Source: Sinomonas sp. ASV486
GTDB taxonomy: Bacteria; Actinomycetota; Actinomycetes; Actinomycetales; Micrococcaceae
Reading direction: 5' to 3'
Assembly: GCF_030908215.1 (NCBI RefSeq)
Contig: NZ_JAVFJK010000014.1
Span: 62,001 to 126,000, forward strand
DNA length: 64,000 bases
The notes beneath the pieces are model-generated. The model was not told the DNA's origin. It did not search any database and worked only from the letters and a program-made list of their open reading frames with translations. Shown one piece after another: positions 6,952 through 23,654 of the stretch; within the stretch, counting starts at the first letter, position 1; each line of letters opens with the position of its first letter. Both the position numbers and the translations under genes were made by a program.

Positions 6952-7769
6952 ACCGCTACACGTGGCGGACGTTCATCCTCGAGGCCGTCATGGTCCTCGT
7001 CGGCGTCCTCTTCTTCCTCCCGGTCTACATCCTTGTCAACCTGGCCCTGAAGAGCCCGGACGACCAGTCCTCCCCGCTCGCGCCCGTGACCAGCGCGACG
7101 TTCCAGAACTTCGCCGACGCGTGGAGCCAGGCCAACCTCGGCCAGGCGCTCCTGACCAGCGCCTTCGTCACGGTCTTCAGCGTGGCGGTCATCGTGGCCG
7201 TCTCGGCCGTTGCCGCCTACCCGCTGGCCCGGGTCACGAAGCGCTGGTCGCGGTGGATGTTCTTCGTGTTCATGGTCGGCCTGCTCCTGCCCTTCCAGCT
7301 GGCGCTCATCCCGCTCTACACGACCATCCGCGACCTCGGACTGCTCGGGAACCCCCTCTCGCTCGTCCTGTACTACGCGGGCCTCCAGGTGCCGTTCTCG
7401 GTCTTCCTCTACACGGGCTTCATCCGCGCGGTGCCACTTGACTACGAGGAGGCCGCCTCGATTGACGGCGCCGGGCCGATCCGCAGCTTCTTCTCGGTGA
7501 TCTTCCCGCTCGTGCGTCCGATCACCGGCACGGTGATCATCCTGAACGTCCTGCACGTGTGGAACGACTTCCTCACCCCCCTGCTGTACCTCAGCGGCAG
7601 CAGCCAGCAGACCGTGCCGGTGGCGCTGTTCTCCTTCGTGAGCCAGTACGTCTCCCAGTGGAACCTCGTCTTCGCTGGCCTCGTGATCACGGTCGCCCCG
7701 ATCCTATTGGCCTACTTCGCAATGCAGAAGACCATCATCAAGGGCTTTGCCAGCGGCCTCAAAGGCTAG
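6948..7769 (+). CDS. sugar ABC transporter permease 2 (CUT1, MalG-like)
   Basis: A 273-residue permease, the partner of the preceding gene. The GTG start overlaps the previous stop (GTGA at 6948-6951). The first membrane segment is at FILEAVMVLVGVLFFLPVYILV, and the EAA loop reads EEAASIDGAGPIRSFFSVIFP. The ending FAMQKTIIKGFASGLKG is typical of MalG-like proteins (usual length about 275). It should form a heterodimeric channel with permease 1 for rhamnose or a rhamnoside. Confidence 0.92.
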   Translation: MNRYTWRTFILEAVMVLVGVLFFLPVYILVNLALKSPDDQSSPLAPVTSATFQNFADAWSQANLGQALLTSAFVTVFSVAVIVAVSAVAAYPLARVTKRWSRWMFFVFMVGLLLPFQLALIPLYTTIRDLGLLGNPLSLVLYYAGLQVPFSVFLYTGFIRAVPLDYEEAASIDGAGPIRSFFSVIFPLVRPITGTVIILNVLHVWNDFLTPLLYLSGSSQQTVPVALFSFVSQYVSQWNLVFAGLVITVAPILLAYFAMQKTIIKGFASGLKG

Positions 7770-7785
7770 CCCGCCGCAACACCCG

Positions 7786-7809
7786 GCAGGGCCCCGTCCC
7801 GGGCCCTGC
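7786..7809 (+). promoter_or_regulatory. intercistronic hairpin between permease and binding protein genes
   Basis: Perfect 9-bp stem (GCAGGGCCC with GGGCCCTGC, 7786-7794 and 7801-7809) and a 6-nt loop. In ABC operons such a structure often protects one side of a processed mRNA so that the binding protein is made in excess; that role is inferred here. Confidence 0.5.
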
Positions 7810-7860
7810 GCCAACACCCATGCAGCCCAAAGGGCGGCACTTCAAAGGAGAGCAAGACAC

Positions 7861-9132
7861 ATGCACAAGAAGAGCCTTCTGGCCCTCTCGGTAGCGGTCG
7901 CCGTGGCCGTCGGCCTGAGCGCCTGCAGCGGCGGCAGCTCCAGCAGCGCCTCGGGGGACGGCAAGACCCTCACCATCGCCGCCACCACGAACGAGAAGCC
8001 CGCCCTGGATGCGGTCGTTGCGAAGTTCAAGGAGCAGAACCCCGGCGTGGACGTCAAGTACACGACCTCTGCGCTCGACCAGTATCAGACCACCACCAGG
8101 ACCCAGCTCTCCTCCGGCACCGCCCCCGACGTCGTGTTCGTCTGGCCCGGCGACGGCAACCCGATGGCGACCCGGGTCGTGGCCAAGGCCGGCTACCTCG
8201 AGGACCTCTCCGGCCAGTCCTGGGCCAACAGCTTCCCCGCAGGCATCAAGCCCGTCACCCAGTACAATGGCAAGACCTACAGCGCCTCCGTCACGTTCTC
8301 CGGCATCGGCGCCGTCTACAACATGACCGCCATGAACCAGGCCGGTCTGACCCCGCCGACCACCTGGAGCGGGCTGCTGCAGTTCTGCACCCAGGCCAAG
8401 GACAAGGGCAAGACAGCGTTCGAGCTCGGCGCCCAGACCAACTGGGTCACCCAGCTCGTCCCCTACTCGCTCACCCCCACCCTGGTCTACGGGCCCAACC
8501 CGAACTTCCCCCAGGACATGGCAGACAAGAAGGCCACCTTCGCGGACTCGAAGTGGACCGACGCGATGAACAAGTACCTCGAGATGCAGAAGGCCGGCTG
8601 CTTCCAGGCCAACCCCCTCGGCACCGACTACAACGCAAGCCTCGCCGCCGTCGCCAAGGGGGACGCCCTCAGCGTCGTCCAGGTCAACTCCGCCGTCGCG
8701 GCCATCAGCCAGCAGGCCCCCCAGGGCACCCAGCTGAACATGCTCCCCGTCCCGGCCACGGACAGCGCCTCCGACACCCGCATGGCAGGTGCCGCCGGCT
8801 CCACCTACGGCGTGAACGCCAAGGCCAAGAACAAGGACCTCGCGATCAAGTTCGTCAACTTCCTCGAGAGCCCCGACGGGATGAACCTCTACGCCCAGAC
8901 CAACAAGGCACTGCCGGCAGTGCCGAATGACAGCTTCAAGGTCGACCCGGCCCTGAGCACCCTGCAGCAGCACCAGAAGGACGGCAAGACGGACGCGTTC
9001 ATGGACCAGAACTGGCCCAACGCCCGCGTCCAGCAGACCCTGTTCCAGGTCGTACAGGACCTGCTCGCCGGCAAGACCGACGTCGCCACGGGCCTGAAGC
9101 AGATGGACTCGGCCTACAGCCAGGGCTCCTAG
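7861..9132 (+). CDS. sugar ABC transporter substrate-binding lipoprotein
   Basis: A 423-residue extracellular solute-binding protein (SBP family 1). The signal peptide MHKKSLLALSVAVAVAVG leads to a lipobox LSAC with Cys22 as the lipidation site, followed by a Gly/Ser linker. Mature-domain signatures include DVVFVWPGDGNP, AGAAGSTYGVNAKAKNKD and the C-terminal FQVVQDLLAGKTDVATGLKQ. The start at 7861 has AAAGGAGAG upstream. It captures the sugar outside the membrane and delivers it to the two permeases. Its position in the rhamnose regulon, followed by a cytoplasmic alpha-L-rhamnosidase, suggests the ligand is a rhamnoside or rhamnose. A G/C-only tract follows the gene. Confidence 0.92.
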   Translation: MHKKSLLALSVAVAVAVGLSACSGGSSSSASGDGKTLTIAATTNEKPALDAVVAKFKEQNPGVDVKYTTSALDQYQTTTRTQLSSGTAPDVVFVWPGDGNPMATRVVAKAGYLEDLSGQSWANSFPAGIKPVTQYNGKTYSASVTFSGIGAVYNMTAMNQAGLTPPTTWSGLLQFCTQAKDKGKTAFELGAQTNWVTQLVPYSLTPTLVYGPNPNFPQDMADKKATFADSKWTDAMNKYLEMQKAGCFQANPLGTDYNASLAAVAKGDALSVVQVNSAVAAISQQAPQGTQLNMLPVPATDSASDTRMAGAAGSTYGVNAKAKNKDLAIKFVNFLESPDGMNLYAQTNKALPAVPNDSFKVDPALSTLQQHQKDGKTDAFMDQNWPNARVQQTLFQVVQDLLAGKTDVATGLKQMDSAYSQGS

Positions 9133-9138
9133 CCCCAC

Positions 9139-9190
9139 CCGGGCGAGGCGCCCGGCCAACAATAGGCGGTGGCGGCCCCCCGGGGCCGCC
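9139..9190 (+). terminator. tandem GC hairpins after the binding-protein gene
   Basis: Two stems follow the stop codon: CCGGGCG/CGCCCGG (9139-9145, 9149-9155) and GGCGGCCCC/GGGGCCGCC (9171-9179, 9182-9190). They lack a T-tract, as is common in high-GC actinobacteria, and may act as a partial terminator or mRNA-stability element before the rhamnosidase gene. Confidence 0.45.
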
Positions 9191-9219
9191 CCCGCCCGCC
9201 GTCACCCCACAGAGTGCCA

Positions 9220-9286
9220 GGGGGCCCCCCCCCGGGGGGGGGGCCCCCGCCCCCCCGGGGGGGGGGGCGCCCGGGGGCCCCCCCCC
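9220..9286. repeat. 67-bp tract of only G and C, in long homopolymer runs
   Basis: Between the binding-protein gene and the rhamnosidase gene lies a stretch without a single A or T, made of alternating G-runs and C-runs of up to about a dozen bases. It can fold into very stable hairpins or G-quadruplexes on either strand. It may attenuate transcription into the next gene, or it may contain homopolymer-length sequencing errors. No coding frame is supported here. Confidence 0.75.
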
Positions 9287-9329
9287 ACCGCCCGCATTCA
9301 CCCCTCAGAGAGCACGTGGGAAGAAGGAC

Positions 9330-11951
9330 ATGACAGTCCCGGCAGCAGCCACACCGACAGAGAAGACCCCAGCTCCAACCACCGCCCGGGTGGCCCGGGT
9401 GCAGGCCGAACACCGCCGGGACGCCCTCGGCATCGGCGAATCCCGCCCCCGGCTCACCTGGCACACGGACGCCCCAGCCGGCTGGAGGCAGGAGAAGTAC
9501 GAGATCGAGGTGGTCCGACGCGGTAACCGGTGCCAAGCGCAGGAGGTCACATCCTCCGACTCCGTCCTCGTGGAATGGCCGTTCGAGCCGCTGCAATCCC
9601 GTGAGCGCGCCCAGGTCCGGGTGCGTCTCTGGGGGGCGGACGGCGAGCCGAGCGGGTGGAGCGAGCCGCTGGGCGTGGAGGCTGGGCTCCTGGACGCGGA
9701 CGACTGGACGGCCTCTGCCATCTCACCCGACTGGGACGAGGACCGCGAGGCGGACAACCCACCCGCCCTGCTGCGCCGCTCCTTTACGGCTGGGGCCGCC
9801 GTCTCCTCGGCCAGGCTCTACGTCACCGCCCACGGCGTGTACGAAGTCGAGATCAACGGCACCCGGGTCGGAGATGAAGTCCTCGCCCCCGGATGGACCA
9901 GCTACGACCACCGTCTGCTGTACTCGACCTTCGATGTCACCGACCTCCTCGCCAAGGGCGAGAACGTTATCGGAGCCTGGCTGGCCGACGGCTGGTTCCG
10001 CGGCCGCATCGGCTTCAAGGGCGGCACCCGCAACGTCTACGGCGAGCGGACCTCCCTGCTCGCCCAGCTCGAGGTCACCTACACGGACGGCCGACGTGCC
10101 GTTATCACTACCGACGACAGGTGGAAGGCCTCCCGCGGCCCCGTCACCGCGGCCAGCTTCTACGACGGCGAAACCCACGACGCCCGCCTCGAGCAGCCGG
10201 GCTGGTCGCAGCCGGGCTTCGACGGCACGGGATGGTCCAGCGTGCGCATCGCGCAGGTCGACAAGGCCACTCTCGAAGCCCCGGTGGGCCCCCCGGTCCG
10301 GTGCACCGAGGAGATCGCCACCCAGCGGATCTGGACCTCCCCCTCGGGCAAGACCCTGGTCGACTTCGGCCAGAACCTCGTCGGCCGGCTCCGCCTCTCT
10401 CTCCAAGGCAAAGGCGGCCAGGCGGTCACGCTCCGCCACGCCGAGGTCCTCCAGGACGGCGAGCTCTACACCCGCCCACTCCGGCTGGCCGCCTCCACAG
10501 ACCAGTACACGCTCGCCGACGACTCCCGTCACACCTGGGAGCCCAGGTTCGCCATGCACGGCTTCCGCTACGCCGAGATCACCGGCGACATCGACGCCGT
10601 CGACCTCGAAGCCCTCACTGCCCGCGTGCACCACACCGATATGGAACGCACCGGCTGGTTCGAATGCTCAGACCCCCTCGTAAACCGCCTCCACGAGAAC
10701 GTGCGGTGGAGCATGCGGGGCAACTTCGTCAGCATCCCCACCGACTGCCCCCAGCGCGACGAGCGCCTCGGCTGGACCGGCGACATCCAGGTCTTCGCCC
10801 CCACTGCCTCCTTCCTATACGACTGCTCGGGAATGCTCGCCGGCTGGCTCAAGGACGTCGCCGACGAACAGCTCCCCGACGGCACCGTCCCCTGGTACGT
10901 CCCCTGGGTCCAGGCCGGCTCATGGGACAAGACCATCCCCGGTGCCGTGTGGGGAGACGTGGCCGTGCTAACCCCGTGGACCCTCTTCGAGCGCTTCGAG
11001 GACAGGGGCGTGCTCGCAGACCAGTACGCCAGCGCCAAGGCCTGGGTCGACCTCATGGCCGAACGCGCCGGCGAGTCCCGCCTCTGGGACGAGGGCTTCC
11101 AGCTCGGCGACTGGCTCGACCCCGCCGCGCCCCCGCACGACCCCGCCGATGCCCGCACGGACCGCTACCTCGTCGCCACCGCCTACTTCGCCTGGTCCGC
11201 CCGTCACCTCTCCCGCATCGCCGAGGTCCTCGGCATGGCCGAGGACGAAGCCCGGTACGCGGAACTAGCCGAGGAGGTCAGAGAGGCGTTTGCCCGGCGG
11301 TACGTCCATGAGGACGGCACCATGGCCAGCGACGCGCAGACGGCCTACGCCCTCGCTCTCGTCTTCGACCTCCTCCCTGAGGAATGGCAGAGGTGCCGGG
11401 CGGCCGACCGGCTGGCCGAGCTCGTCGCGGAGGCGGGGAACCGCATCGCCACCGGCTTCGCCGGCACCCCGGTCATCAGTGACGCCCTCACCCTCGGTGG
11501 CCACGTCGAGGCCGCCTACGACCTCCTCCGGGAAAAGGAATGCCCCTCCTGGCTGTACGCGGTTAAGCAGGGCGGAACGACCATCTGGGAGCGCTGGGAC
11601 TCCATGCTCCCCGATGGGACCGTCAATCCCGGGGAGATGACCTCCTTCAACCACTACGCCCTGGGGGCCGTGGCCGACTGGATGCACCGGGTCATCGGCG
11701 GCCTCGCGCCGCTCGAACCGGGCTACCGGAAGATCGGCATCAAACCCCGCCCCGGCGGAGGGATCACCCACGCGACCACGCGCCACCTCACCCCCTACGG
11801 GGTGGCTGAGGTAGCATGGCGAATCGTCGATGGGACCCTGCACGTTTACGCCACCGTCCCAGCCGGCACGACCGCCACGGCAGACCTGCCCGGGCAGCCA
11901 CCGAGGGAACTCGGCCCGGGCACGCACGCCCTGAGCGCCTCTATCGGCTGA
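9330..11951 (+). CDS. rhaS-like: alpha-L-rhamnosidase, GH78
   Basis: An 873-residue glycoside hydrolase family 78 enzyme releasing L-rhamnose from rhamnosides. Domains follow the usual order: an N-terminal fibronectin-like domain (RVQAEHRRDALGIGESRPRL), the carbohydrate-binding Bac_rhamnosid_N domain around residues 145-310 (VTAHGVYEVEINGTRVGDE), a beta-sandwich, then the (alpha/alpha)6 barrel. The catalytic loop reads DCPQRDERLGWTGD near residues 472-485, and a C-terminal beta-domain starts around 790 (LEPGYRKIGIKPRPGGGI). There is no signal peptide, so it should act in the cytoplasm on imported rhamnosides. ATG at 9330 has GAAGGAC upstream. It lies at the end of the importer operon after the G/C tract. 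Confidence 0.93.
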   Translation: MTVPAAATPTEKTPAPTTARVARVQAEHRRDALGIGESRPRLTWHTDAPAGWRQEKYEIEVVRRGNRCQAQEVTSSDSVLVEWPFEPLQSRERAQVRVRLWGADGEPSGWSEPLGVEAGLLDADDWTASAISPDWDEDREADNPPALLRRSFTAGAAVSSARLYVTAHGVYEVEINGTRVGDEVLAPGWTSYDHRLLYSTFDVTDLLAKGENVIGAWLADGWFRGRIGFKGGTRNVYGERTSLLAQLEVTYTDGRRAVITTDDRWKASRGPVTAASFYDGETHDARLEQPGWSQPGFDGTGWSSVRIAQVDKATLEAPVGPPVRCTEEIATQRIWTSPSGKTLVDFGQNLVGRLRLSLQGKGGQAVTLRHAEVLQDGELYTRPLRLAASTDQYTLADDSRHTWEPRFAMHGFRYAEITGDIDAVDLEALTARVHHTDMERTGWFECSDPLVNRLHENVRWSMRGNFVSIPTDCPQRDERLGWTGDIQVFAPTASFLYDCSGMLAGWLKDVADEQLPDGTVPWYVPWVQAGSWDKTIPGAVWGDVAVLTPWTLFERFEDRGVLADQYASAKAWVDLMAERAGESRLWDEGFQLGDWLDPAAPPHDPADARTDRYLVATAYFAWSARHLSRIAEVLGMAEDEARYAELAEEVREAFARRYVHEDGTMASDAQTAYALALVFDLLPEEWQRCRAADRLAELVAEAGNRIATGFAGTPVISDALTLGGHVEAAYDLLREKECPSWLYAVKQGGTTIWERWDSMLPDGTVNPGEMTSFNHYALGAVADWMHRVIGGLAPLEPGYRKIGIKPRPGGGITHATTRHLTPYGVAEVAWRIVDGTLHVYATVPAGTTATADLPGQPPRELGPGTHALSASIG

Positions 11952-12113
11952 AACCACCCCTGTGCCGGAAGGCAGCCATCCGCCCTTGGTCTCGGCCGCC
12001 TCTCCTTGCGTGGGCAGACAAGGAGAAGCGGCGGGCGCGGCAATGCGCTCTCTGCCGAAGGCAGCGCCCCAAGGCTCTGGACGTCCGCCCGCGGCTCGTG
12101 CCAAACTGGATCC

Positions 12114-12127
12114 GGAAAACGCTTTCC
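12114..12127. promoter_or_regulatory. second-type LacI operator before the oxidoreductase-GH78 operon
   Basis: GGAAAACGCTTTCC, a near-perfect 14-bp palindrome with central CG, about 30 bp before the ATG at 12158. Its arms (GGAAA/TTTCC) differ from the TGAA/TTCA arms of the rha sites, which suggests control by a different LacI protein, most simply the one at 17746-18801. The preceding stretch from 11952 holds no gene. Confidence 0.6.
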
Positions 12128-12157
12128 CAAGGCCTGAACCGGTCGCAAAGGAGCCAG

Positions 12158-14266
12158 ATGATCACGCACGTCTCCCACCCCACCGCCTCGGCCTCAGGAA
12201 CCGAAGATACGGGAGGGCAGGAGCACGCCCCGGCCCGCGTCGCCCTCGTGGGCGCCCACGGCTTCGGCCTTGTGCACCTGCGGAACCTCGCGCGCCTGGC
12301 CGGGAGCGGCGCCGTGGTCCTCGACGCCGTGGCCGACCCCCGCGAGCCGGAACCCGGAAGCGTGCCGGACGGCACGCCGTCGTACGCGTCCCTCGAGGAT
12401 CTCCTCGCCGGCCGCCCCGCCCCGGACATCGCGATCGTGGCGACGCCCATCCAGACGCACGGTCCGCTCGCCGCGGCGGCACTCGCCGCCGGCGCCCGGC
12501 TCTACCTCGAGAAGCCGCCCGTGCCCTCGATCGCCGCCTACCGCGAGCTGCTCGCAGACGCCGAGAGCCGCGGCGCCGCAGTCCAGGTGGGGTTCCAGAG
12601 CCTCGGATCCCACGCGCTGCCCGCAATCGAGCAACTCCTTGCCTCGGGAGAGATCGGCGCCCTGCGGGCGGTCGGGGCGATCGGGGTCTGGACCCGCGAC
12701 CTCGCATACTATGCGCGTTCGCGCTGGGCCGGGAAGCGCCTCATGGACGGCGTCGAGGTCGTGGACGGCGTCGTGACCAACCCGCTGGCCCATGCGGTCG
12801 CGACGGCGCTGCGTATCGCCGGGGCGCGGCGGGAGGAGGATGTCGCGAGCGTCGACGTCGACCTCTACCACGCCCACGGTATCGACGCCGACGACACGTC
12901 GGTCGTGCGCCTCGTCACCGCCGGGGGAATCCCTGTCACGTGCGCACTGACGCTCTGCGCGACCGAAACCGCGGAGCCGTGGGTCACGGTCTACGGCACC
13001 GAGGGCGAGGCCCAGCTCTTCTACACGCAGGACAGGCTGATCGTCCGCACCGAGGCCGGCGAGCGCGAGGAGCGCTACGGCCGCACGGACCTGACCGAGA
13101 ACCTCCTCGACCACCTCTCCCACGGGACCGGGCTCCTGAGCTCGCTCGCGAACACGGGTGCGTTCATGCGGGTCCTCGAGGCTGTGCGCACCGCGCCGGA
13201 GGTCCGGGCCATCGCACCCGGGTACGTCGACTGGGTCGGCGAGGGGCAGGCCGCCCGGCCGATCGTGCGAGGCATCGAGGCCACGCTCGAGCGGGCCGTC
13301 AAGGCGCAGGCAACGTTCGCCGAACTCGGCGTCCCCTGGGCCGCCGCCGTAGGGCCGGCAGGGTTGCTCACCCTCCCTGACGGGCAGCCGGTGGCCGAGC
13401 TGTGCGACGGCGCCCACCTCGCTCCGGCACTCTCGCCCCGGCCGTACCTGCACCCGGTCCGCACCCTGGCGGGGACCACGGTCACTGACCACCTGCCCCT
13501 CGACCATGTGTGGCACCTCGGCCTCGGGCTGGCGCTCCAGGACGTGTCCGGGACCAACCTGTGGGGCGGCCGCACGTACACACGCGAGGCGGGGCGGTAC
13601 GTGTGGCGTGCCGACCACGGCCGTGTCGCGACGGAGTCCATGGACGGTCCACGGGGCCGAATCCTGCAGCGGCTGCGCTGGGAAGCGCACGACGGCGCCG
13701 CCCTCCTCGCGGAGGCGCGAACCCTCACCGCCGAGCGGGCCTTGGGACCGGCGGACGACGGCGCATGGCGCCTCACGCTGCACTCGCGCCTCACCGCTGC
13801 GCGGGATGTGATCCTCGGGGGCCCCGGCTCGAACGGCAACGCCGGCGGTGGCTACGGCGGCTTCTTCCTGCGCCTCGCCTCGTGCACGGGGGCCCGTGTG
13901 TTCACCGCCGACGCCGAGGGCGAGACCGCCGTGCATGGGCATGCCGCCCCCTGGATCGCCTGGAGCGCGCGCTTCGACGGCGGGCCCGCCGGTCGGGACG
14001 GCCAGGGCGCCGAGGCCGGCGTCGTCATCGCGGCGGCGCCCGAGGCACCCGACGATCCGTGGTTCGTCCGTCTCGCGGGGTACCCCGGCATTGGCTCGGC
14101 CCTCGCATGGGAGCGGGCTGTGGAGCTCCCCGCCGGCGAGGCGCTCGAGCGGACGTTCCGAGTGTGGTTCGTGGACGGTCCCGTCGACCCTGAGCGCGCA
14201 GCGGCCCTGGTCGCTGCCCCGGACGCGACGGCCCCGGACTCAGCAGCCCCGGAAGCGGGCGCCTGA
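12158..14266 (+). CDS. Gfo/Idh/MocA oxidoreductase fused to a DUF6807 (PmoA-like) domain
   Basis: A 702-residue protein. Residues 26-150 form a Rossmann domain (VALVGAHGFGLVHL) with the family EKPP near residue 118, and the Gfo/Idh/MocA C-terminal domain runs to about residue 385. From about residue 398 a second region begins (AGLLTLPDGQPVAELCDGAH) and includes DHVWHLGLGLALQD, NLWGGRTYTREAG and GFFLRLASCTGARVF, typical of the DUF6807/methane-oxygenase-PmoA family. These two are often separate neighbouring genes; here they are one continuous frame. ATG at 12158 has AAAGGAG upstream. Likely an NAD(P)-dependent sugar or glycoside oxidoreductase acting with the GH78 protein that follows 4 nt later; the substrate is unknown. 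Confidence 0.82.
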   Translation: MITHVSHPTASASGTEDTGGQEHAPARVALVGAHGFGLVHLRNLARLAGSGAVVLDAVADPREPEPGSVPDGTPSYASLEDLLAGRPAPDIAIVATPIQTHGPLAAAALAAGARLYLEKPPVPSIAAYRELLADAESRGAAVQVGFQSLGSHALPAIEQLLASGEIGALRAVGAIGVWTRDLAYYARSRWAGKRLMDGVEVVDGVVTNPLAHAVATALRIAGARREEDVASVDVDLYHAHGIDADDTSVVRLVTAGGIPVTCALTLCATETAEPWVTVYGTEGEAQLFYTQDRLIVRTEAGEREERYGRTDLTENLLDHLSHGTGLLSSLANTGAFMRVLEAVRTAPEVRAIAPGYVDWVGEGQAARPIVRGIEATLERAVKAQATFAELGVPWAAAVGPAGLLTLPDGQPVAELCDGAHLAPALSPRPYLHPVRTLAGTTVTDHLPLDHVWHLGLGLALQDVSGTNLWGGRTYTREAGRYVWRADHGRVATESMDGPRGRILQRLRWEAHDGAALLAEARTLTAERALGPADDGAWRLTLHSRLTAARDVILGGPGSNGNAGGGYGGFFLRLASCTGARVFTADAEGETAVHGHAAPWIAWSARFDGGPAGRDGQGAEAGVVIAAAPEAPDDPWFVRLAGYPGIGSALAWERAVELPAGEALERTFRVWFVDGPVDPERAAALVAAPDATAPDSAAPEAGA

Positions 14267-14270
14267 GGGC

Positions 14271-17200
14271 ATGGCGACCACCGGTACCGAAACGTCCAAC
14301 GACTCCCAGGCGACCGCCCGCGAGGCCCTGGGCCCGCTCGTCCCCGTCCGGCTTCGCGTCGAGGGCGCCGAGCGATGCCTCACCGCGGGTCCGACTCCGC
14401 GGTTGTCGTGGCAGGCCGAGGCCCGCGCGGGCGCCGGGGATCCCTCGAGCGCCGGGACCCGCACTGGGGCCGAGGTGCCGGACGGACGGCTCACGCCCGT
14501 CGCCGCCGAGGCGAGGATCCTCGCCGTGGACGGGCGTGTCCTCTGGGCCCCGGGTCCTCTCGCGCTGCCGGCTCACGCCACGACGCGCGTGGTCGTTCCG
14601 GCCGCGTCCGCCCTCCCCCCGGACACGGAATGCTCCTGGACCGTGCGGCTCCGCTCGGCCGACGGCGCGTGGGGACCGTGGAGCGCAGAGCATGCCTTCG
14701 GCACGGGGCTCGGGGACGCTGACTGGACCGCCCAGTGGATCACGCGCGCGCCTGGAGGCCGCGCACCGATCCGAATTGTGCACGGGCTCGGAGGCAGGCC
14801 CGAGCTGCGTTGGCACGGGATCCCGTTCGTGCCCGCGCCGGCCGAGGCCGAGTTCGACTTCACCCTCGAGGCCGAGCTGCGACCCGTGCTCGGCGCGTGT
14901 GGGATCGTATTCCACAGCGGCGGCCCGGGCACCGGTCTCCTCCTCGAGCTCGGACCGGGGGACCGCATCACGCTCCGGCCGCTCGCGGCGTGGGGGCAAC
15001 CGTGCGGACCCGAGGACTGGGCCAGCGCGCCACTGGCCGAGGCCGCGCTCCCCGCGCCCTCCCCCGCCTCGACCGACCGGCACCCGGACGGTCGCGTGCG
15101 GCCGGGCGAGACCCCCTGGCGACACCTCCGGGCGGAGGCCCGCGGCGGGAGGCTCGCGGTCGCCGTCGACGGCACGCCGGTTCTCGATACCGCGCTGCCC
15201 GCGCCCGCGGGGACGCTGCTCGGGCTGCACGCCACGCCCCGGGCCGAGGGCGCCCTGCGCGGTCTGACCTTGAGCAACGGCACAGAACCCTTCCGGTACA
15301 GCACCGCGGCCGACGGCCTCGCAGGCTGGCCCGCTGACACGCCCTTCCGCCAGCCCGACGAGTGGTCGCTCCTGCGCACCGAGGTACGGCTCGCAGGCCC
15401 CGTGCGCCGCGCCGTCCTCTACGCCGCGGCCCGGCATCAGGCCTGGGCATCCGTGGGCGGGCGTGAGGTCCTGGCCCTCTCCTCGTTCGGGTATCCGGGC
15501 GAGGACTACTACGATGCCGCGGACGTCACCGGCGCCGTCCGCGCGGCCGCCGCCGACAGCGGCCGCATGGCCCTCGCCGCCCTCGCGCACTGGTACGGCC
15601 CGGGTCAGGGACGCGCGTCGGGCCATCCCGGCCTCATCGCGCAGCTGCACCTCGAGTACGCCGACGGGCGCCGCGAGGTGTTCGACACCGGTCCGGGCTG
15701 GCGTGCAGCCGAGGCGCCCTACGCGCAGGCCGGCTATCGCAACGACGAGGGCGACCCGATCGAGCACGCCCTCGCTCCCCTCCCGGCGGGCTGGGACTCG
15801 CCCGGGTTCGCGGAGGGGTCGGGGTGGGGGCCCGGCGTCGTCCTCGGGACCCACCCACGGGAGGAGTTCCCGTCACTGCACCCCCGCCGCGCGCACACGG
15901 CCGAGGAGCAGGTCGACCCGGTGCGCTGGCTCACCGCCGCGGACGGGACACGCGTCGCGGACTTCGGCGCGGTCCGGGCGCTGCGGCCACACGCGGCGTT
16001 CGACGGCGCGTCGGGGCCAGGCGGGACCGTGCGGCTCCGCGCGGGGTACAGCCTGAGGGCCGACGGGCGCGTGGATGAGGCAAAGACCCCGAGCCAGAAC
16101 ACGGACATGGGCTTCCTCGCCGGGCCAGGGTTCGCGGACACTAACACGGACACGGACACGGGCGCGGCCGACGGCGCGGCTCCGGGCGCTCCGTTCGAAG
16201 CCCGCGTCCACCTCGGCTTCCGCTACCTCGAGATCGAGGCCCGCGGAGCGCAGGAGGGCGTGCCCGCGGGGGTGAGCGCCGCCGTCGTGCGTGCCACGCA
16301 CCCTGACGCACCGGCCGCCGTCGAGACATCGGATCCCCGCCTCAACCGCGTGCTGGCACTGCTGCAGGATTCGGCACTGCACGGAGTGCAGGAGCGTTTC
16401 ATGGATACGCCGACCCGGGAGAAGGGACAGTTCCTCGCGGACGCCGTGAACATCTCACTCGCGACCATGGCCGCGTTCGGCGAGCGCGAGTTCACGCGAC
16501 AGGCACTGCGGGAGTTCGTGTGGTCCGGCACACGGTACTGGAACGCACCCGAGGAGCGCGGCCGCCTCAACGCTGTCTACCCGAACGGGGACGGCAAGCG
16601 GGACATCCCCGACTTCTCGCTCATGCTGCCCGAGTGGGCCGAGGCCTACTGGCTGAACTCGGGCGACGACACGTTCGCCGCCGAGCTGTTGCCCGCGCTC
16701 GAGGCGACGTGCGGCTACGTGCGCCGCGCCATCCCTGACGCCGGCCCGTGCACGGGACTCGTCACGGACCTGCCGGGCGGCGGGGGGCCGTACCTGCACG
16801 GGATCGTGGACTGGCCCGCTCCGAACCGGCACGGCTACGACATGGCGGCTGCCGCCCGGACCGCAGTGAACGCGCAGGCGTACGCCGCGCTCACGTCGAC
16901 GTCACGGCTCGCTGGCGCGCTCGGGCGCGAGGCACTCGCGGCCTCCCTGCGCGACTCCGCCGCCGCCCTGGCCGCGGCGATGGAGGCCAAGCTGCGGGTC
17001 GACGGGGTTCTCGTAGACGGCCTGCACGCGGACGGGGTGCCGAGCCGGCATGCATCCCAGCACGCGTCGGCGATGCCGCTCGCCGTCCGCGCGACGGACC
17101 CCCAGCACCGCAGTGCGGATGCGCGGCGTGCCGCGTCCCTCGGCCTGCGGATGGGGCCTATGACGTGGCACCGGCTGCTCGCCGCGCTCGTCGGCGAGGG

Positions 17201-17642
17201 GCTCGTGGAGGAGGCGCTCGGCGTCGTGCTCGACGACCCGTCACGCGGACCCCTCGCCTGGCTCGACGCCGGCGCGACGTTCGCGTGGGAATCGTGGGAG
17301 ATCGTCGAGGGGACCGACTACAGCCAGTCCCACGCGTGGGCGGCCGCCGCGTGGCCCGTGCTCGTGGACGGGATCCTCGGGCTGCGGCGCGTGGCGCCCG
17401 GCCGGTTCGAGGTCAGACCGCCCGCGTGCCGCCTCGAGTGGGCTCGTGCGGAGCTCCCCGTCGAGCAGGGCAGGCTGGGGATCTCGTGGCGCCGTTCCGA
17501 CGCCGGGGTGGAGCTCGAGTGCGAACTGCCTCCGGGGACCGAGGCGCTGGTCACCGTTCCGGACACGACGCACGACGCCGCGCCCCGCCTCCTCGGGCCG
17601 GGTCGCCACACGCTGGGGCCGGCTCGCGGGGCCGCCCAGTGA
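14271..17642 (+). CDS. large GH78 alpha-L-rhamnosidase-like protein with an inserted lectin-like domain
   Basis: A 1123-residue family 78 glycoside hydrolase-like protein, well above the usual 850-950. The N-terminal sandwich (PRLSWQAEA) is followed at about residues 163-340 by an inserted beta-rich domain (FDFTLEAELRPVLGACGIVFHSG, here shortened in reading) resembling concanavalin-like glycan-binding modules. Then come the rhamnosidase N domain (YYDAADVTGAVR), the helical barrel with MDTPTREKGQFLADA near residues 709-723, and WESWEIVEGTDYSQSHAWA near the end. The catalytic loop differs from the CPQRDER form of the first enzyme but keeps an acidic pair. No signal peptide. It starts 4 nt after the previous stop and is likely cotranscribed. 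Substrate probably differs from the first rhamnosidase. Confidence 0.85.
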   Translation: MATTGTETSNDSQATAREALGPLVPVRLRVEGAERCLTAGPTPRLSWQAEARAGAGDPSSAGTRTGAEVPDGRLTPVAAEARILAVDGRVLWAPGPLALPAHATTRVVVPAASALPPDTECSWTVRLRSADGAWGPWSAEHAFGTGLGDADWTAQWITRAPGGRAPIRIVHGLGGRPELRWHGIPFVPAPAEAEFDFTLEAELRPVLGACGIVFHSGGPGTGLLLELGPGDRITLRPLAAWGQPCGPEDWASAPLAEAALPAPSPASTDRHPDGRVRPGETPWRHLRAEARGGRLAVAVDGTPVLDTALPAPAGTLLGLHATPRAEGALRGLTLSNGTEPFRYSTAADGLAGWPADTPFRQPDEWSLLRTEVRLAGPVRRAVLYAAARHQAWASVGGREVLALSSFGYPGEDYYDAADVTGAVRAAAADSGRMALAALAHWYGPGQGRASGHPGLIAQLHLEYADGRREVFDTGPGWRAAEAPYAQAGYRNDEGDPIEHALAPLPAGWDSPGFAEGSGWGPGVVLGTHPREEFPSLHPRRAHTAEEQVDPVRWLTAADGTRVADFGAVRALRPHAAFDGASGPGGTVRLRAGYSLRADGRVDEAKTPSQNTDMGFLAGPGFADTNTDTDTGAADGAAPGAPFEARVHLGFRYLEIEARGAQEGVPAGVSAAVVRATHPDAPAAVETSDPRLNRVLALLQDSALHGVQERFMDTPTREKGQFLADAVNISLATMAAFGEREFTRQALREFVWSGTRYWNAPEERGRLNAVYPNGDGKRDIPDFSLMLPEWAEAYWLNSGDDTFAAELLPALEATCGYVRRAIPDAGPCTGLVTDLPGGGGPYLHGIVDWPAPNRHGYDMAAAARTAVNAQAYAALTSTSRLAGALGREALAASLRDSAAALAAAMEAKLRVDGVLVDGLHADGVPSRHASQHASAMPLAVRATDPQHRSADARRAASLGLRMGPMTWHRLLAALVGEGLVEEALGVVLDDPSRGPLAWLDAGATFAWESWEIVEGTDYSQSHAWAAAAWPVLVDGILGLRRVAPGRFEVRPPACRLEWARAELPVEQGRLGISWRRSDAGVELECELPPGTEALVTVPDTTHDAAPRLLGPGRHTLGPARGAAQ

Positions 17643-17745
17643 CCGTTACGTCCGCGGCTCGGGGGCGTGCCGCCGTCGTGCGCGAGGAACCGAGGCTCGC
17701 CCGGAAGCCCCGGAGCGCCTGCGGGGAAGGCGGTAGTCTCCCAGC

Positions 17746-18801
17746 ATGAGCCGTTCCCGAACCGCGTCCGCCCCCGCGTCCGGCACCGCGAGCATCCGGG
17801 ACGTCGCGGAGCTCGCGGGCGTGTCCGTGGGCACGGTGTCCAACGTGCTCAACCGGCCTGACATCGTCCGCCCCGCGACCGTCGAGCGCGTGCACACGGC
17901 TATCAAGGAGCTCGGGTTCGTGCGCAACGACGCCGCGCGGCAGCTGCGCGCGGGCCGCTCGACGACGATCGGGCTCGTGGTGCTCGACGTCCGGAACCCG
18001 TTCTTCACCGACGTGGCCCGCGGCGCCGAGGACGAGGCCGCGCACGACGGGCTCTCCGTGGTCATGGCGAACAGCGACGAATCGGCGGAGCGCGAGGCCT
18101 CGCATCTGGACTACTTCGAGACGCAGCGCGTGCTCGGAATGCTCATCTCGCCGATCGGTGACCTCGGAGACCGGCTCGAGCGCCTCCGGGCCGCGGGCAC
18201 CCCGGTGGTGCTCGTGGACCGGACGGCGGGCAACCGCAGCCTGAGCTCGGTGGCCGTCGACGACGTCGAGGGCGGCCGCCTCGCCGCCCAGCACGTGCTC
18301 GGGCTCGGTCGGCGACGCCTCGCGTTCGTGGGCGGCCCGCACGATCTCGACCAGATGCGCGACCGCCTCGCCGGGGCCCGGGCCGCAGCCGACGGCGTCA
18401 AGGGAGCGAGCGTCGAGGGGATCGCGACGGCGGGACTCGGCTTCGAGGATGGTCGACGCGCCGCCAAGGCCCTCCTCGGGCGGCCAGCTTCCGAACGCCC
18501 GGATGCCCTCCTGGCGGGCAACGACCTCGTGGCGATCGGCGCGCTCCAGGTGCTGATGGGGGAGGGCGGACTCCGCGTCCCCGAGGATGTCGCGATCGTG
18601 GGCTACGACGACATCGACTTCGCGAGCGCCGCAGTGGTGCCCCTCTCGTCCGTGCGCCAGCCCCGTGAGCTGATCGGCGAGACCGCGGTGCAGATCCTGC
18701 GAGAGGAGGCCGAGGATCCGTCCCTTGAACCCCGGCAGGTGGTGTTCAAGCCCGAGCTCGTGGTGCGGGACTCGACCGTGGGGCGCGGCGCGCAGGGATG
18801 A
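17746..18801 (+). CDS. LacI-family transcriptional regulator
   Basis: A 351-residue LacI/GalR regulator. The helix-turn-helix is at residues 16-36 (IRDVAELAGVSVGTVSNVLN), followed by a hinge helix (NDAARQLRAGRS) and an effector domain with VVLVDRTAG, FVGGPHDLDQMRDR and VGYDDIDFASAAVVPLSSV. It lies 103 bp after the large GH78 gene on the same strand and probably controls the oxidoreductase-GH78 operon through the site at 12114-12127. Its recognition helix differs from the rhamnose regulator at 4598-5671, in line with the different operator. The effector is unknown. Confidence 0.88.
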   Translation: MSRSRTASAPASGTASIRDVAELAGVSVGTVSNVLNRPDIVRPATVERVHTAIKELGFVRNDAARQLRAGRSTTIGLVVLDVRNPFFTDVARGAEDEAAHDGLSVVMANSDESAEREASHLDYFETQRVLGMLISPIGDLGDRLERLRAAGTPVVLVDRTAGNRSLSSVAVDDVEGGRLAAQHVLGLGRRRLAFVGGPHDLDQMRDRLAGARAAADGVKGASVEGIATAGLGFEDGRRAAKALLGRPASERPDALLAGNDLVAIGALQVLMGEGGLRVPEDVAIVGYDDIDFASAAVVPLSSVRQPRELIGETAVQILREEAEDPSLEPRQVVFKPELVVRDSTVGRGAQG

Positions 18802-19986: not shown

Positions 19987-21177
19987 TCAGACGGCCTCGA
20001 GCACGCTCACGTAGTTCGCGATCGCGAGGCCGCCCATGTTGTGCACGGCCGCCCGGCGCGCGCCGGGGAGCTGCATCTCCCCGGCGCTCCCGGTGAGATG
20101 CATGGCCGCGACCACGTGCTGCGACACGCCCGTGGCTCCCACAGGATGGCCCTTGGCCTTGAGCCCGCCGGACAGGTTGACCGGCAGCCGACCGCCCCGG
20201 TACACGGACCCGTCCTCGATCGCCACGCTCCCCTTGCCCCGCTCCGCGAGCCCCATCACCTCGTACATGAGGAGCTCGGCGATCGTGAAGCAGTCGTGGA
20301 CCTCGGCGAGGTCGAGGTCCACGAGGTCCGCGCCGGCCATGGACAGGGCCCGGGCCCACGCGGCCCGGCTGCCGGCGAACTCGAGCGGGTCGCGCTTCGC
20401 TGCGGGCAGGAAGTCGTTCGCGTGCCCGAACCCCGCGAGGCGCACGGGATCCGCGGCGGCGCCCGACGGCGCGTGGTCGGCCGAGAGCACGAGGGCGGCG
20501 GCGCCGTCGGACACCGGGGAGCAGTCGGTGCGCCGCAGCGGCGCGTCCACGATGGGGTTCTTCTCCGAGACGGTGCGGCAGAACTCCTCGCCGAAGTCGC
20601 GGTGCATGTGCGCGTACGGGTTGGCCATGCCGTTGCGGTGGTTCTTCGCGGCGATCGATCCGAGCACGTCCGAGACCTGGCCGTAGCGGTCCTCATACGC
20701 CCGGGCCACCTCCGCGAAGAGCCCGGTGAAGCCCGTGGTCGAGGGCCTCCCGGCCGACTCGTACCCCGCGCCCAGGAGTGCCGCGCCCACGGTGTCGGGC
20801 CCGGCTGCGGTCATCTTCTCGGCCCCTATCACGAGCACATTCCGAGCCGTCCCGGCCAGGAGCGCCCTGACGCCCTGCTGGAACGCTCCCGAGCCGGAAG
20901 CGCACGCATTCTCGACGCGGGTCGCGGGCACATTGGCGAGGTCGTCGGAGACCTGCAGCGCGAGCGAGGACGCGAACGCGAGCGGCACCATGCCCGCGTT
21001 GTAGTTGCCGAGGTAGATCTCGTCGATCTGACCCGGCTCGAGGCCCGAGTTCTCGATGGCCTCGCGAGCGGCGGTCACGACGAGCGACTCGAGCGTCTCC
21101 CCCTCGAGCTTCCCGAACCGGGTGTGGCCCCATCCCGTGAGCAGGACGTCGGTCCCGAACTGGTCCTTGAGCGACAT
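19987..21177 (-). CDS. thiolase (SCP2/acetyl-CoA acetyltransferase type)
   Basis: A 396-residue thiolase-fold enzyme. The nucleophilic Cys is in RVENACASGSGAFQQG, the second catalytic region is EVHDCFTIAELLMYE, and the GHP motif is in GGLKAKGHPVGATGVSQ. The form is that of SCP2/SCP-x-type thiolases rather than FadA or PhaA. ATG at 21177 shares one base with the stop of the CoA-transferase B gene (TGATG). Together with the CoA-transferase it should activate a beta-keto acid and cleave its CoA ester, as in 3-oxoadipate or acetoacetate breakdown. Which substrate is used is not evident. Confidence 0.88.
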   Translation of the reverse strand: MSLKDQFGTDVLLTGWGHTRFGKLEGETLESLVVTAAREAIENSGLEPGQIDEIYLGNYNAGMVPLAFASSLALQVSDDLANVPATRVENACASGSGAFQQGVRALLAGTARNVLVIGAEKMTAAGPDTVGAALLGAGYESAGRPSTTGFTGLFAEVARAYEDRYGQVSDVLGSIAAKNHRNGMANPYAHMHRDFGEEFCRTVSEKNPIVDAPLRRTDCSPVSDGAAALVLSADHAPSGAAADPVRLAGFGHANDFLPAAKRDPLEFAGSRAAWARALSMAGADLVDLDLAEVHDCFTIAELLMYEVMGLAERGKGSVAIEDGSVYRGGRLPVNLSGGLKAKGHPVGATGVSQHVVAAMHLTGSAGEMQLPGARRAAVHNMGGLAIANYVSVLEAV

Positions 21178-21875
21178 CAGCGCGCCACCTCCGCGAGGGC
21201 GTCGGCCCGCGCGGCCTGGGGGGCTACGTCGAATTCCGCGCCCGTCTTGTCCCGCAACTCGTCGAGCCCCACGCCGGGGGCGAGCTTTACGAGCGTGAGC
21301 CGCCGCGCGCCGTCGTGCGCATCGCCTTGCCTGAGCACGTCGAACACCGCCAGGTCGGTGATGATCCGGTCCACGACCCCGACTCCGGTGAGCGGCAGGG
21401 TGCACTCTGCGACGATCTTGGGCGTGCCGTCCTTGGCGACGTGCTCGGTGAGCACGACGACGCGCGGCGTCCCCGCCACGAGGTCCATGGCCCCGCCCAT
21501 CCCCTTGACCATCTTGCCGGGAATCTGCCAGTTGGCGAGGTCACCGCTGCCGGAAACCTGCATGGCCCCGAGGATCGCCACCTTGACGTGGCCGCCGCGG
21601 ATCATGCCGAAGCTCGTGGCGGAGTCGAAGATCGAGCCGCCGGGCACGACCGTCACGGTCTGCTTGCCGGCGTTGATGAGGTCGGCGTCTTCGTCGCCCT
21701 CGTAGGGGAACGGGCCCATGCCGAGCAGCCCGTTCTCGCTCTGCAGGTGCACGGTCACGCCGTCGGGAAGGTTGTTGGCAACGAGGGTCGGGATGCCGAT
21801 CCCGAGGTTCACGTAGTCGCCGTCGCTCAGCTCGGTGGCGGCGATCGCCGCCATCTCATCGCGGGTCCAAGCCAT
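21177..21875 (-). CDS. scoB-like: 3-oxoacid CoA-transferase subunit B
   Basis: A 232-residue beta subunit of a family I CoA-transferase. The catalytic glutamate lies in the SENG motif ([12 protein letters not shown]), followed by the glycine-rich [20 protein letters not shown]. It moves CoA from succinyl-CoA or acetyl-CoA to a 3-oxoacid as a complex with subunit A. AAAGGAGACCC precedes the ATG at 21875. It lies 64 bp after the subunit A gene, with a short tandem repeat in the gap. Confidence 0.92.
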
Positions 21876-21891
21876 GGAAAGGGTCTCCTTT

Positions 21892-21943
21892 GGAAGTCAG
21901 GTTCTGGGAGTCAGGTTCTGAGAGTCAGGTTCTTGGGGGTCAG
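21892..21943. repeat. 14-bp tandem repeat between the two CoA-transferase genes
   Basis: Three near-identical copies of a 14-15-bp unit with the core AGTCAGGTTCT (21892-21906, 21907-21920, 21921-21934) and a partial fourth that contains the stop codon of the subunit A gene. It lies in the 64-bp gap just before the subunit B ribosome-binding site. Confidence 0.85.
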
Positions 21944-22713
21944 CCGGCGACGGCGGAGGGCTGGGTCTGCAGCTGCTGGTCCTGCCGGTGCTGGTCCTGC
22001 CGATGCTCGGCCTGAGGGCGCGGGCGCGTCGTGGTCTGCTCGATGTGCTTCACGCGGTCTGTGGCCTGCACGAGCCGCTGGACATAGACGCCGGGTGTGA
22101 CGATGTGGTTGGGATCGAGCTCGCCCGCTGGCACGACGTGCTCGGCCTCGGCGACCGTGATCCGCCCGGCGGTCGCAACGATCGGGTTGAAGTTCCGGGC
22201 GGTGTAGCGGTAGACGAGGTTGCCCGCGGTGTCCGCCGTGTGGGCATGGACGAGTGCGACGTCGGCCACGATCCCGCGCTCCCGGACGTAGAGCTCGCCG
22301 TCGAACGTCTCGTGCGGCTTCCCCTCGGCGACGAGCGTGCCCACGCCTGTCTTGGTGTAGAACGCGGGGATCCCGGCACCTCCGGCCCGGAGCCGCTCGG
22401 CGAGCGTACCCTGGGGCGTGAACTCGACCTCGAGTCTCCCGGCGAGGTACTGCTCCGCGAACAGCCTGTTCTCGCCCACGTAGCTCGCAATGACCTTCGC
22501 TACCTGGCCGGCCTCGATGAGGACGCCGAGGCCCTTGCCGTCGATACCCATGTTGTTGGAGGCGACGGTGAGGCCCGTGACCCCGGAGTCCCGCACGGCG
22601 TCGATGAGGTCGGCCGGGATTCCGCTCAGGCCGAACCCGCCCACCGCCAGCGTCATCCCGTCCGTGAGCGTGCCGGCCAGCGCCTCGGCGGCATCTGTGT
22701 ACATCGTGAGCAT
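21940..22713 (-). CDS. scoA-like: 3-oxoacid CoA-transferase subunit A
   Basis: A 257-residue alpha subunit of a family I CoA-transferase. Typical segments are GMTLAVGGFGLSGIPADLI at the N-terminus, SNNMGIDGKGLGVL, SYVGENRLFAEQYLAG and PAFYTKTGVGTLVAEGK. The last 25 or so residues (RPRPQAEHRQDQHRQDQQLQ and on) are a Gln/Arg/His-rich tail encoded by imperfect short repeats and are not part of the usual fold. It heads the leftward scoA-scoB-thiolase operon, divergent from the IclR gene. Confidence 0.92.
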   Translation of the reverse strand: MLTMYTDAAEALAGTLTDGMTLAVGGFGLSGIPADLIDAVRDSGVTGLTVASNNMGIDGKGLGVLIEAGQVAKVIASYVGENRLFAEQYLAGRLEVEFTPQGTLAERLRAGGAGIPAFYTKTGVGTLVAEGKPHETFDGELYVRERGIVADVALVHAHTADTAGNLVYRYTARNFNPIVATAGRITVAEAEHVVPAGELDPNHIVTPGVYVQRLVQATDRVKHIEQTTTRPRPQAEHRQDQHRQDQQLQTQPSAVAG

Positions 22714-22750
22714 GGGCTCCTCCTCGAGCTCGGTGGCGTCCCTGATTCAG

Positions 22751-22763
22751 CCACGTTGTGGAC
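22751..22763. promoter_or_regulatory. candidate IclR operator, scoA side
   Basis: CCACGTTGTGGAC, a quasi-palindrome (CCAC-N4-GTGG type) about 40 bp upstream of the scoA start. Its reverse complement matches the site at 22855-22867 at 11 of 13 positions. Confidence 0.55.
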
Positions 22764-22854
22764 TGTTCTGGTGAGGAGCCTAGGGCCGCTGTTCCTTGGG
22801 TCACAAGGGAGAAGGACTCCGACTGTTCACGTGATGGTCGGTGCGACCTAGAAT

Positions 22855-22867
22855 GTCCACATTGTGG
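22855..22867. promoter_or_regulatory. candidate IclR operator, regulator side
   Basis: GTCCACATTGTGG, the inverted partner of the site at 22751-22763, about 23 bp upstream of the iclR start. The pair brackets the divergent promoter region. Confidence 0.55.
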
Positions 22868-22889
22868 CGTGTTTGTTGTGAGGAGGCCG

Positions 22890-23654
22890 ATGGCAGACGT
22901 CCAGGGTACGCAGGTCGTGGGGCGGGTTGCACTCCTGCTGCGGATCGTCGCGAAGGCGGGCGGGACGGGGCTATCCCTCCCGGGGATCGTGCGCGCCTCG
23001 GCCCTGACCCGACCCACGGTCCACCGGCTCCTCAAAGCCCTCGCAGCCGAGGGCCTCCTCGACCTCGACGAGCCGACCGGCCGATGGCACCTCGGCCCCG
23101 AGCTGTACGTCTTGGGCACGGTTGCGGGAGGCCGGTTCGCCGTCGAGCACGTGGCGCGGCCGGCCCTTCGTCGCCTCGCCGAGGCGACGGGCGAGTCGGC
23201 GTTCCTCTCGATCCGGCGCGGCAACGAGACCGTGTGCCTCGCGCGCGAAGAGGGGAGCTTCCCTGTACGCTCGTTCGTGCTCTACGAGGGCAAACGGTTC
23301 CCGCTGGGCGTGGCCTCGGCGGGCATCGCAATCCTCGCCTTCCTGCCGGAGGAGGAGTCTGAGGCCATCATCGCCGACGACGGCGAGCGCTCCGCCGAGT
23401 ACGGCCCCGCCCACGCGTCCGGGCCGCTCCGCGACAAGGTCGCCGAGACGCGCGAACTCGGGTACTCAGTCAACCCGGGCCTCATCGTAGAGGGCTCCTA
23501 CGGGCTCGGCGCGGCGGTCTTCGACCCCGCGGGCCGGCCAGCATGGGCTCTCTCGCTCACGGGCATCGAGCCGCGATTCCGGCCCGGGCGCCGCGAGGAG
23601 CTAGGCGAGCTGCTGATGGCCGAGGCACACAGGCTCTCGACGGCGATCGCCTGA
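22890..23654 (+). CDS. IclR-family transcriptional regulator
   Basis: A 254-residue IclR regulator. The winged HTH is in residues 10-70 (VARVALLLRIVA form; LSLPGIVRASALTRPTVHRL is the helix-turn-helix) and the effector domain follows (ATGESAFLSIRRGNETVCLA and the C-terminal GYSVNPGLIVEGSYGLGAAV). ATG at 22890 has GAGGAGG upstream. It is divergent from the CoA-transferase/thiolase operon with two matching palindromes in the 176-bp gap, so it most likely controls that operon and itself, as PcaR/KipR-type proteins do for keto-acid degradation. Confidence 0.9.
   Translation: MADVQGTQVVGRVALLLRIVAKAGGTGLSLPGIVRASALTRPTVHRLLKALAAEGLLDLDEPTGRWHLGPELYVLGTVAGGRFAVEHVARPALRRLAEATGESAFLSIRRGNETVCLAREEGSFPVRSFVLYEGKRFPLGVASAGIAILAFLPEEESEAIIADDGERSAEYGPAHASGPLRDKVAETRELGYSVNPGLIVEGSYGLGAAVFDPAGRPAWALSLTGIEPRFRPGRREELGELLMAEAHRLSTAIA

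Follow-up and report, generated by a model that had tools for sequence, protein, structure and literature searches.

What does a two-gene operon that couples a DUF6807-bearing oxidoreductase to a putative rhamnosidase do beside a rhamnose (rha) operon, and which regulator controls it? The question is raised by positions 12158-17642 of a 64,000-nucleotide stretch of the Sinomonas sp. ASV486 genome (contig NZ_JAVFJK010000014.1, here C6, positions 62,001 to 126,000; hereafter the window, in which all coordinates without a prefix are counted). The first-pass annotation of this DNA posited a rhamnoside module with an operator and a LacI regulator of its own. Genes, operators, conservation, synteny and intact catalytic residues were computed directly, with comparisons spanning 15 Sinomonas genomes, that of the window included, and related loci of other genera (handles G and L denote genomes and loci, respectively). 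The reading that we prefer, at a probability of about 0.55, is that the two genes form an intracellular branch for rhamnogalacturonan I (RG-I) oligosaccharides within the regulon of another LacI-family protein, LacI3, and that this branch feeds rhamnose to the rha operon. The features at issue are as follows.

12114-12127, plus strand: GGAAAACGCTTTCC, palindromic operator of the fusion-GH78 operon, putatively of LacI3 type
12158-14266, plus strand: 702-residue fusion of a Gfo/Idh/MocA (Gfo) oxidoreductase (about residues 27-395) and DUF6807 (about 408-685), from Pfam
14271-17642, plus strand: 1123-residue GH78-like enzyme of alpha-L-rhamnosidase-like type, into which a CBM66-like domain is inserted at about residues 160-345, from Pfam
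17746-18801, plus strand: LacI2, inferred RhaR and putative regulator of the rha operon, from orthology, synteny and a tree
746-4383, minus strand: rha operon within the window, from Pfam and synteny
3964-4383, minus strand: rhaM, from Pfam and synteny
2801-3967, minus strand: rhaI, from Pfam and synteny
746-2785, minus strand: RhaEW-type aldolase/dehydrogenase gene of the rha operon, from Pfam and synteny
Window start, minus strand: putative rhaB of the rha operon, named by position and size and cut off by the window edge
4396-4409, no strand assigned: CTGAATCGATTCAA, RhaR-type operator upstream of rhaM, from operator scans

The claim that the operon at 12158-17642 is governed by an operator unlike the TGAA/TTCA operator of the rha genes holds, as the comparison of GGAAAACGCTTTCC with the rha promoter site CTGAATCGATTCAA makes clear. 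The former starts 44 bp upstream of the fusion ATG at 12158; the exact sequence GGAAANCGNTTTCC is unique to this site in the whole 4.28 Mb genome and is present in 8 of the 15 Sinomonas genomes, the identical set of eight that holds the Gfo-DUF6807 fusion, each with a GGAAA site upstream of the fusion gene (G005 and G009 have one more exact copy elsewhere). It is this conservation that takes the GGAAA operator beyond chance; in the window alone, matches with at most three mismatches are not in significant excess (5 versus 2.1 expected, with as many in 6 of 100 shuffles). The rha promoter palindrome TGAATCGATTCA is found in 9 of the 15 genomes (the eight fusion carriers and G006), and the rha promoter of G013 contains the variant TTGAAACGATTCAG, the conservation expected of a RhaR site. 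Given these patterns, the two operators are real and distinct, and their half-sites, GGAAAR and TTGAAT, are unlike at four of six positions.

Which protein binds which operator we infer from orthology, gene order and site distribution. The gene at 17746-18801, taken by the first-pass annotation for the private regulator of the operon, does encode a LacI protein, but comparison makes it, with high confidence, the genus RhaR, a regulator of the rha operon that is not specific to the module. Its orthologs are 81-88% identical in the six fusion-bearing relatives first examined and 99% identical in G058, a genome of the same species. This identification follows from two relatives that lack the fusion, G006 and G013, where the ortholog (84-85% identity) occupies the position expected of RhaR, divergent from rhaM and the remaining rha operon, with a TTGAA-type site and no GGAAA-type site in the intergenic region. 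G013 further lacks LacI3 and shows no GGAAA-type site (at most two mismatches) between genes in the 20 kb examined. In a tree of 30 rows, the window protein groups among the genus RhaR proteins, although RhaR is not one clean clade in this tree: some deeper RhaR rows are long-branched, and LacI1, the regulator of a neighboring cassette described below, arises within the group. An order-wide search detected RhaR-like proteins in 86 of 248 genomes. In the window, rhaR sits downstream of the GGAAA-controlled genes, and in G011 it follows a GH42 gene (L045:65-3249); given this position, read-through from genes under the RG-I regulator might add to the amount of RhaR.

For the GGAAA operator, LacI3 is a likely regulator, to judge from the company that sites and gene keep. 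The gene maps to C6:51150-52238, some 10 kb ahead of the window, and its orthologs (72-99% identical) are present in 10 of the 15 genomes, namely, all eight with the exact site plus G006 and G003. Eight GGAAA sites with at most one mismatch occur genome-wide, four of them on contig C6 at 34658-74127, that is, within 39.5 kb, a clustering with a probability of about 2e-4 given one anchor site. These four are located as follows.

C6 site 1: between the ABC2 binding-protein and permease genes
C6 site 2: between an AXE1-family esterase gene and LacI3
C6 site 3: ahead of an operon that encodes Gfo, an epimerase-family and a DHDPS-family protein, the product of an unscanned gene and aldehyde dehydrogenase
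C6 site 4: before the Gfo-DUF6807 fusion

The operon behind the third site we take to have an oxidative uronate layout. A GGAAA-type site with at most two mismatches also lies in the LacI3 promoter of 7 of the 10 LacI3 genomes (G000, G058, G001, G005, G006, G009 and G010), so that the operator is common to several operons of one pathway and to the promoter of the regulator itself. The genome that best separates the two systems is G006, which has no fusion: there, a TTGAA site at rhaM accompanies RhaR, and GGAAA-type sites at the esterase gene and the uronate operon accompany LacI3. In G030, a LacI3-type gene adjoins the fusion, and AGAAA-type sites (two mismatches) precede both. The recognition helices of the three regulators differ (VSVGTVSN in RhaR, VSLGTVSH in LacI1, VSRATVSR in LacI3). 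Regulators fused to DUF6807 at three loci are closer to LacI3 (54-58% identity) than to RhaR (34-38%). The architecture of these proteins, with DUF6807 at the C-terminus (L055:10338-12305, L057:7379-9346 and L059:9179-11101, from G042, G055 and G047), is unusual and comes from three families of the order.

The GH78-like protein exceeds the Pfam cut-offs for the GH78 catalytic, C-terminal and N-terminal Ig-like domains. Its assignment to the family rests on the catalytic domain Bac_rhamnosid6H (78.2 bits against a cut-off of 24.5), since Bac_rhamnosid_N, which falls short (22.3 against 25), is an accessory domain; the Streptomyces rhamnosidase equivalog NF041573 scores 71.3 bits against a cut-off of 1720, and we do not claim that subgroup. 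As had been noticed from the sequence alone, the catalytic loop (DTPTREKGQFLAD) differs from that of the canonical GH78 enzyme of the window (DCPQRDERLGWTGD). The profile of the GH78-like proteins aligns without gaps to the loop of Bacillus RhaB (2okx), and D712, E717, D724 and E1007, identical in 34 of 34 rows, align with 2okx D567, E572, D579 and E841 (residue numbers counted along the printed chain), which we take to be the acids of the catalytic pocket. The altered loop is thus of the Bacillus RhaB type by alignment, with its acids intact, and a loss of catalytic residues is rejected. The structure model has a mean predicted local distance difference test score (pLDDT) of 82, with values below 60 in stretches that hold catalytic residues (711-720 and 1001-1020, for example), and a fold search with it returned GH78 structures first. 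The extra domain reported earlier is also borne out: CBM66 chains match about 185 columns with a template modeling (TM) score of 0.70 by target, a match that we assign to the inserted domain of about 190 residues, the matched range itself not being printed. Of the 34 rows, four lack this domain wholly or almost wholly (L132, a split gene call, L139, L141 and L062), and in L124 it is cut short. A sequence search with the inserted segment gave no match at E-values up to 10; with CBM66 as the outcome of the fold search, a DUF1080-type 3-keto-hydrolase was rejected as its identity.

The partner enzyme belongs to the Gfo/Idh/MocA superfamily, its Rossmann domain scoring 55.7 bits against a Pfam cut-off of 24, and residues E118-K119-P120 (the EKP motif), N208 and H212 are retained in 30 of 30 Gfo rows. 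The best fold match of the fusion model (mean pLDDT 89.9) is glucuronide-3-dehydrogenase 8tdi, at 18-19% identity, followed by other sugar dehydrogenases, several of them 3-dehydrogenases; the structure reportedly comes from work on 3-keto-glycosides. The NCBIfam BT_2158-family equivalog matches weakly (29 bits against a cut-off of 750, E-value 4e-7), and membership is not claimed. No DUF1080 match was found among the Pfam-scanned neighbors. In DUF6807, H, D, E, R and Y residues are kept in 22 or 23 of 23 rows; a profile search for a solved relative yielded three matches, the best with an E-value of 0.62, which we regard as chance, and an open-literature search for the domain gave a single paper, which mentions it in passing. 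Neither the fusion nor the GH78-like protein has a signal peptide apparent on reading the sequences, no predictor having been run, and both are probably intracellular. The earlier proposal that processing takes place inside the cell and then feeds the rha pathway accordingly stands as probable in its first part and plausible in its second.

The substrate context comes mostly from outside the genus. A scan of the genome collection returned 44 loci, of which Arthrobacter, Pseudarthrobacter and Paenarthrobacter contribute 29; 37 GH78-like genes were called, counting two Sinomonas loci and one L132 gene split in two, and eight loci (L127, L128, L142, L145-L149) yielded no gene above the threshold and are outside this count. 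In 28 of the 37 cases, the GH78-like gene stands immediately downstream of a Gfo gene, often with overlapping ends, and 11 of those Gfo proteins carry DUF6807. GH42 is present in 28 of the 44 loci. Of 37 scanned loci (L108-L144), 26 have a GGAAA-type site (at most two mismatches) before the Gfo operon and 25 have one before GH42, counts that are inflated by near-identical loci. The genes of L108 that were scanned with Pfam, 7 out of 17 called, include DUF1961, a GDSL esterase and DUF624, a set known from the Bacillus subtilis rhamnogalacturonan locus. PL11 (L061, L051) and GH106 (L056, L052) occur near Gfo or DUF6807 genes. The L051 gene (L051:12739-18039) encodes a 1766-residue protein with a PL11-like region 44% identical to the L061 PL11; it lies one gene from a Gfo-DUF6807 fusion and has GGATTGCGCTTTCC 45 bp upstream. 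Two Gfo genes are present in the Pseudarthrobacter locus L112, at 6685-7890 and 14546-16588: a DUF6807-less Gfo next to the GH78-like gene and a separate Gfo-DUF6807 fusion, which suggests two paralogous roles. An oxidised or modified rhamnoside, the substrate proposed by the first-pass annotation, is not indicated by this context, which instead features rhamnogalacturonan-type and uronate genes. Among the papers listed by open-literature searches, judged by title and abstract opening, none describes the Gfo and GH78-like pair; a Paenarthrobacter pectin genome paper lists GH78 genes and, in the portion at hand, does not mention the Gfo/GH78-like context (PMC12844168).

On the preferred reading, LacI3 would repress the fusion-GH78 unit at GGAAAACGCTTTCC, and its regulon would also take in the acetyl-esterase gene, an ABC importer and the apparent oxidative galacturonate operon. 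RG-I is the substrate that gene content moderately favors. The GH78-like enzyme would cut off non-reducing-end rhamnose, which would pass to the rha operon; RhaR (17746-18801) would control the latter through TTGAATCGATTCAA, the fusion-GH78 unit thus sitting between rhaM and its putative regulator gene rhaR. The reactions of Gfo and DUF6807 are speculative. Gfo, as a member of the glycoside-3-dehydrogenase class, might oxidise a galacturonosyl residue at C3, creating a labile bond, with the assistance of DUF6807 where present, and the galacturonate released might enter the neighboring uronate operon. Such a redox-assisted galacturonosyl step is tentative and, on balance, improbable; it is attractive because the genome has no match to PF07470 (GH88/GH105) or PF00295 (GH28), two common families of enzymes that remove galacturonosyl residues, although PL11, PL4 and GH4, among others, were not sought there (of 14 control genomes, 3 gave matches to the first of the two searched families and 4 to the second). 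Rather doubtful, too, is its extension to the Arthrobacter group, where RG-I oligosaccharides would be dismantled inside the cell without GH105 or GH28, with GH78 stripping rhamnose, the upstream Gfo oxidising the exposed galacturonosyl residue at C3, and DUF6807 acting as the cleaving or keto-sugar-handling partner. Under the redox scheme, DUF6807 fused elsewhere to the LacI of the pathway would be a sensor or a tethered enzyme for the keto-sugar.

Several observations weigh against the RG-I branch under LacI3. The fusion occurs without the GH78-like gene in G010 and G011, and 17 of the 28 Gfo partners lack DUF6807, so that the three parts are not obligate companions. The rhamnosidase-like activity of the GH78-like enzyme is putative, specificity within GH78 is not readable from sequence, and no RG-I lyase was identified among the window genes that were scanned, which are not all of them. 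On the regulatory side, the LacI3 promoters of G002, G003 and G011 have no GGAAA-type site at up to two mismatches, and a control with the pattern reversed found 4 sites in the whole genome, compared with the 8 real ones, so that about half of the latter may be chance and it is their clustering, not their number, that carries weight.

Among the alternatives, the one that fares best, unlikely as it is, has RhaR bind both operator types and co-regulate rha and oligosaccharide genes. Co-regulation of rhamnose and rhamnose-oligosaccharide genes by Actinomycetales LacI-type RhaR is proposed by Rodionova et al. (2013; PMC3870299). Also counting against LacI3, RhaR alone among the LacI proteins is encoded immediately next to the fusion within the genus, as it is next to several Arthrobacter loci, which makes dual binding conceivable; RhaR-like sites with two mismatches (CTGAATCGATACAA or TTGAATCGATACAT) appear in 8 of the 37 loci, before GH42 in seven and before Gfo in one, so that RhaR may co-control the pathway there. 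Dual binding is hard to reconcile with the extent to which the half-sites differ, with G013, which has RhaR without LacI3 or a GGAAA-type site, and with the association of GGAAA-type sites with LacI3-type proteins in other families.

A little less probable again is a role for the GH78-like enzyme in processing flavonoid or other small rhamnosides, its nearness to pectin genes then being incidental. GH78 includes flavonoid rhamnosidases, and the homologs from Nocardioides (L134, L135), Actinopolymorpha (L133) and Actinoplanes (L139) have no Gfo neighbor, but the GH42, esterase and ABC neighbors and the operator type common to 26 of 37 loci argue for a pectin context. Finally, the original proposal, in which the LacI at 17746-18801 is a dedicated repressor acting through GGAAAACGCTTTCC on a pathway for an oxidised or modified rhamnoside, is very improbable and was rejected: the gene is codirectional with the operon across a 103 bp gap (17643-17745) in which no terminator-like hairpin was found, and its orthologs are present in all eight fusion-bearing genomes, but those of G006 and G013 stand divergent from rhaM without the fusion or an exact GGAAA site, that of G011 lies about 8 kb from the fusion, and another LacI, of LacI3 type, accompanies the GGAAA-type sites.

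A module with a private regulator does exist in the window. Of the earlier claim of a separate rhamnoside module, the part that stands is that there are two modules; the private regulator belongs, as far as sequence comparison can tell, to the canonical GH78/ABC cassette at 4598-11951, which has the following parts.

4598-11951, no strand assigned: cassette of LacI1, ABC transporter and canonical GH78, absent from the corresponding position of G058, a genome of the same species
4598-5671, minus strand: LacI1, cassette member
6097-6951 and 6948-7769: ABC permeases
7861-9132: solute-binding protein
9330-11951: canonical GH78
4471-4484, no strand assigned: TTGAAACGCTTCAC, LacI1-type site that lies upstream of rhaM, in the stretch to which G058 does not align
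5754-5767, no strand assigned: GTGAAACGCTTCAG, LacI1-type site of the cassette, with counterparts in G001 and G010
5886-5899, no strand assigned: GTGAAGCGTTTCAA, second LacI1-type site, with counterparts in G001 and G010

The cassette brings its own TGAARCGYTTCA sites. Orthologs of LacI1 (75-77%) are limited to G001 and G010, where LacI1, its ABC genes and the canonical GH78 occur together at other genomic places; with close orthologs in 3 of 15 genomes, counting that of the window, against 9 of 15 for the rha operator, LacI1 is rejected as a general rha regulator. G058 has no LacI1 ortholog, and its alignment with the window stops at about 4372 and resumes at 11969-12005; therefore, the cassette either was inserted in the window genome or was lost in G058. 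The strain-specific segment (4373-12000, with LacI1, ABC and canonical GH78 genes) spans 7.6 kb. G058 has, instead, a 5 kb four-gene insert between rhaM and rhaI, perhaps an ABC importer to judge from gene sizes only. Elsewhere in the window, at 19987-23654, a thiolase gene and genes for two CoA-transferase subunits are divergent from an IclR regulator, a set that we take for a beta-ketoadipate-type layout of aromatic degradation.

Three side-by-side LacI-operator systems are thereby told apart in a region where annotation by adjacency would err. Pectin RG-I is the specific context in which both a GH78 subgroup and the uncharacterised oxidoreductase-DUF6807 fusion are placed, and DUF6807 acquires two leads: it is fused here to an enzyme resembling glycoside dehydrogenases and, in other genomes, to a regulator of LacI3 type. 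If the redox scheme is true, this orphan family would gain a role, and redox-assisted glycan breakdown would extend to pectin.

The pathway and its enzymes resemble known systems in part. L108 shares DUF1961, a GDSL esterase, DUF624, ABC permeases and GH42 with the yes rhamnogalacturonan locus of Bacillus subtilis; unlike that locus, the Sinomonas genome has no GH105 match and has the Gfo and GH78-like pair instead, and LacI proteins take the place of AraC-type regulation. The GH78-like enzyme shares with RhaB of Bacillus sp. GL1 (2okx) a catalytic loop of equal length and the four identically matched acids, and differs in its additional N-terminal Ig-like and CBM66-like domains; the best fold match, Streptomyces 3w5m/3w5n, is similarly modular, with a loop one residue longer in an alignment read by eye. 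The fusion is akin to the glycoside 3-dehydrogenases (8tdi and the BT_2158 family) in its top fold matches, its EKP motif and its weak NCBIfam match, but its low identity to them and its fusion to DUF6807 set it apart, and its 3-keto activity is putative. With respect to the Actinomycetales LacI-type RhaR, the LacI at 17746-18801 fits the pattern of a LacI gene beside rhaM, rhaI and rhaEW, as seen in the relatives, whereas the oligosaccharide genes here bear another operator, pointing to a second regulator.

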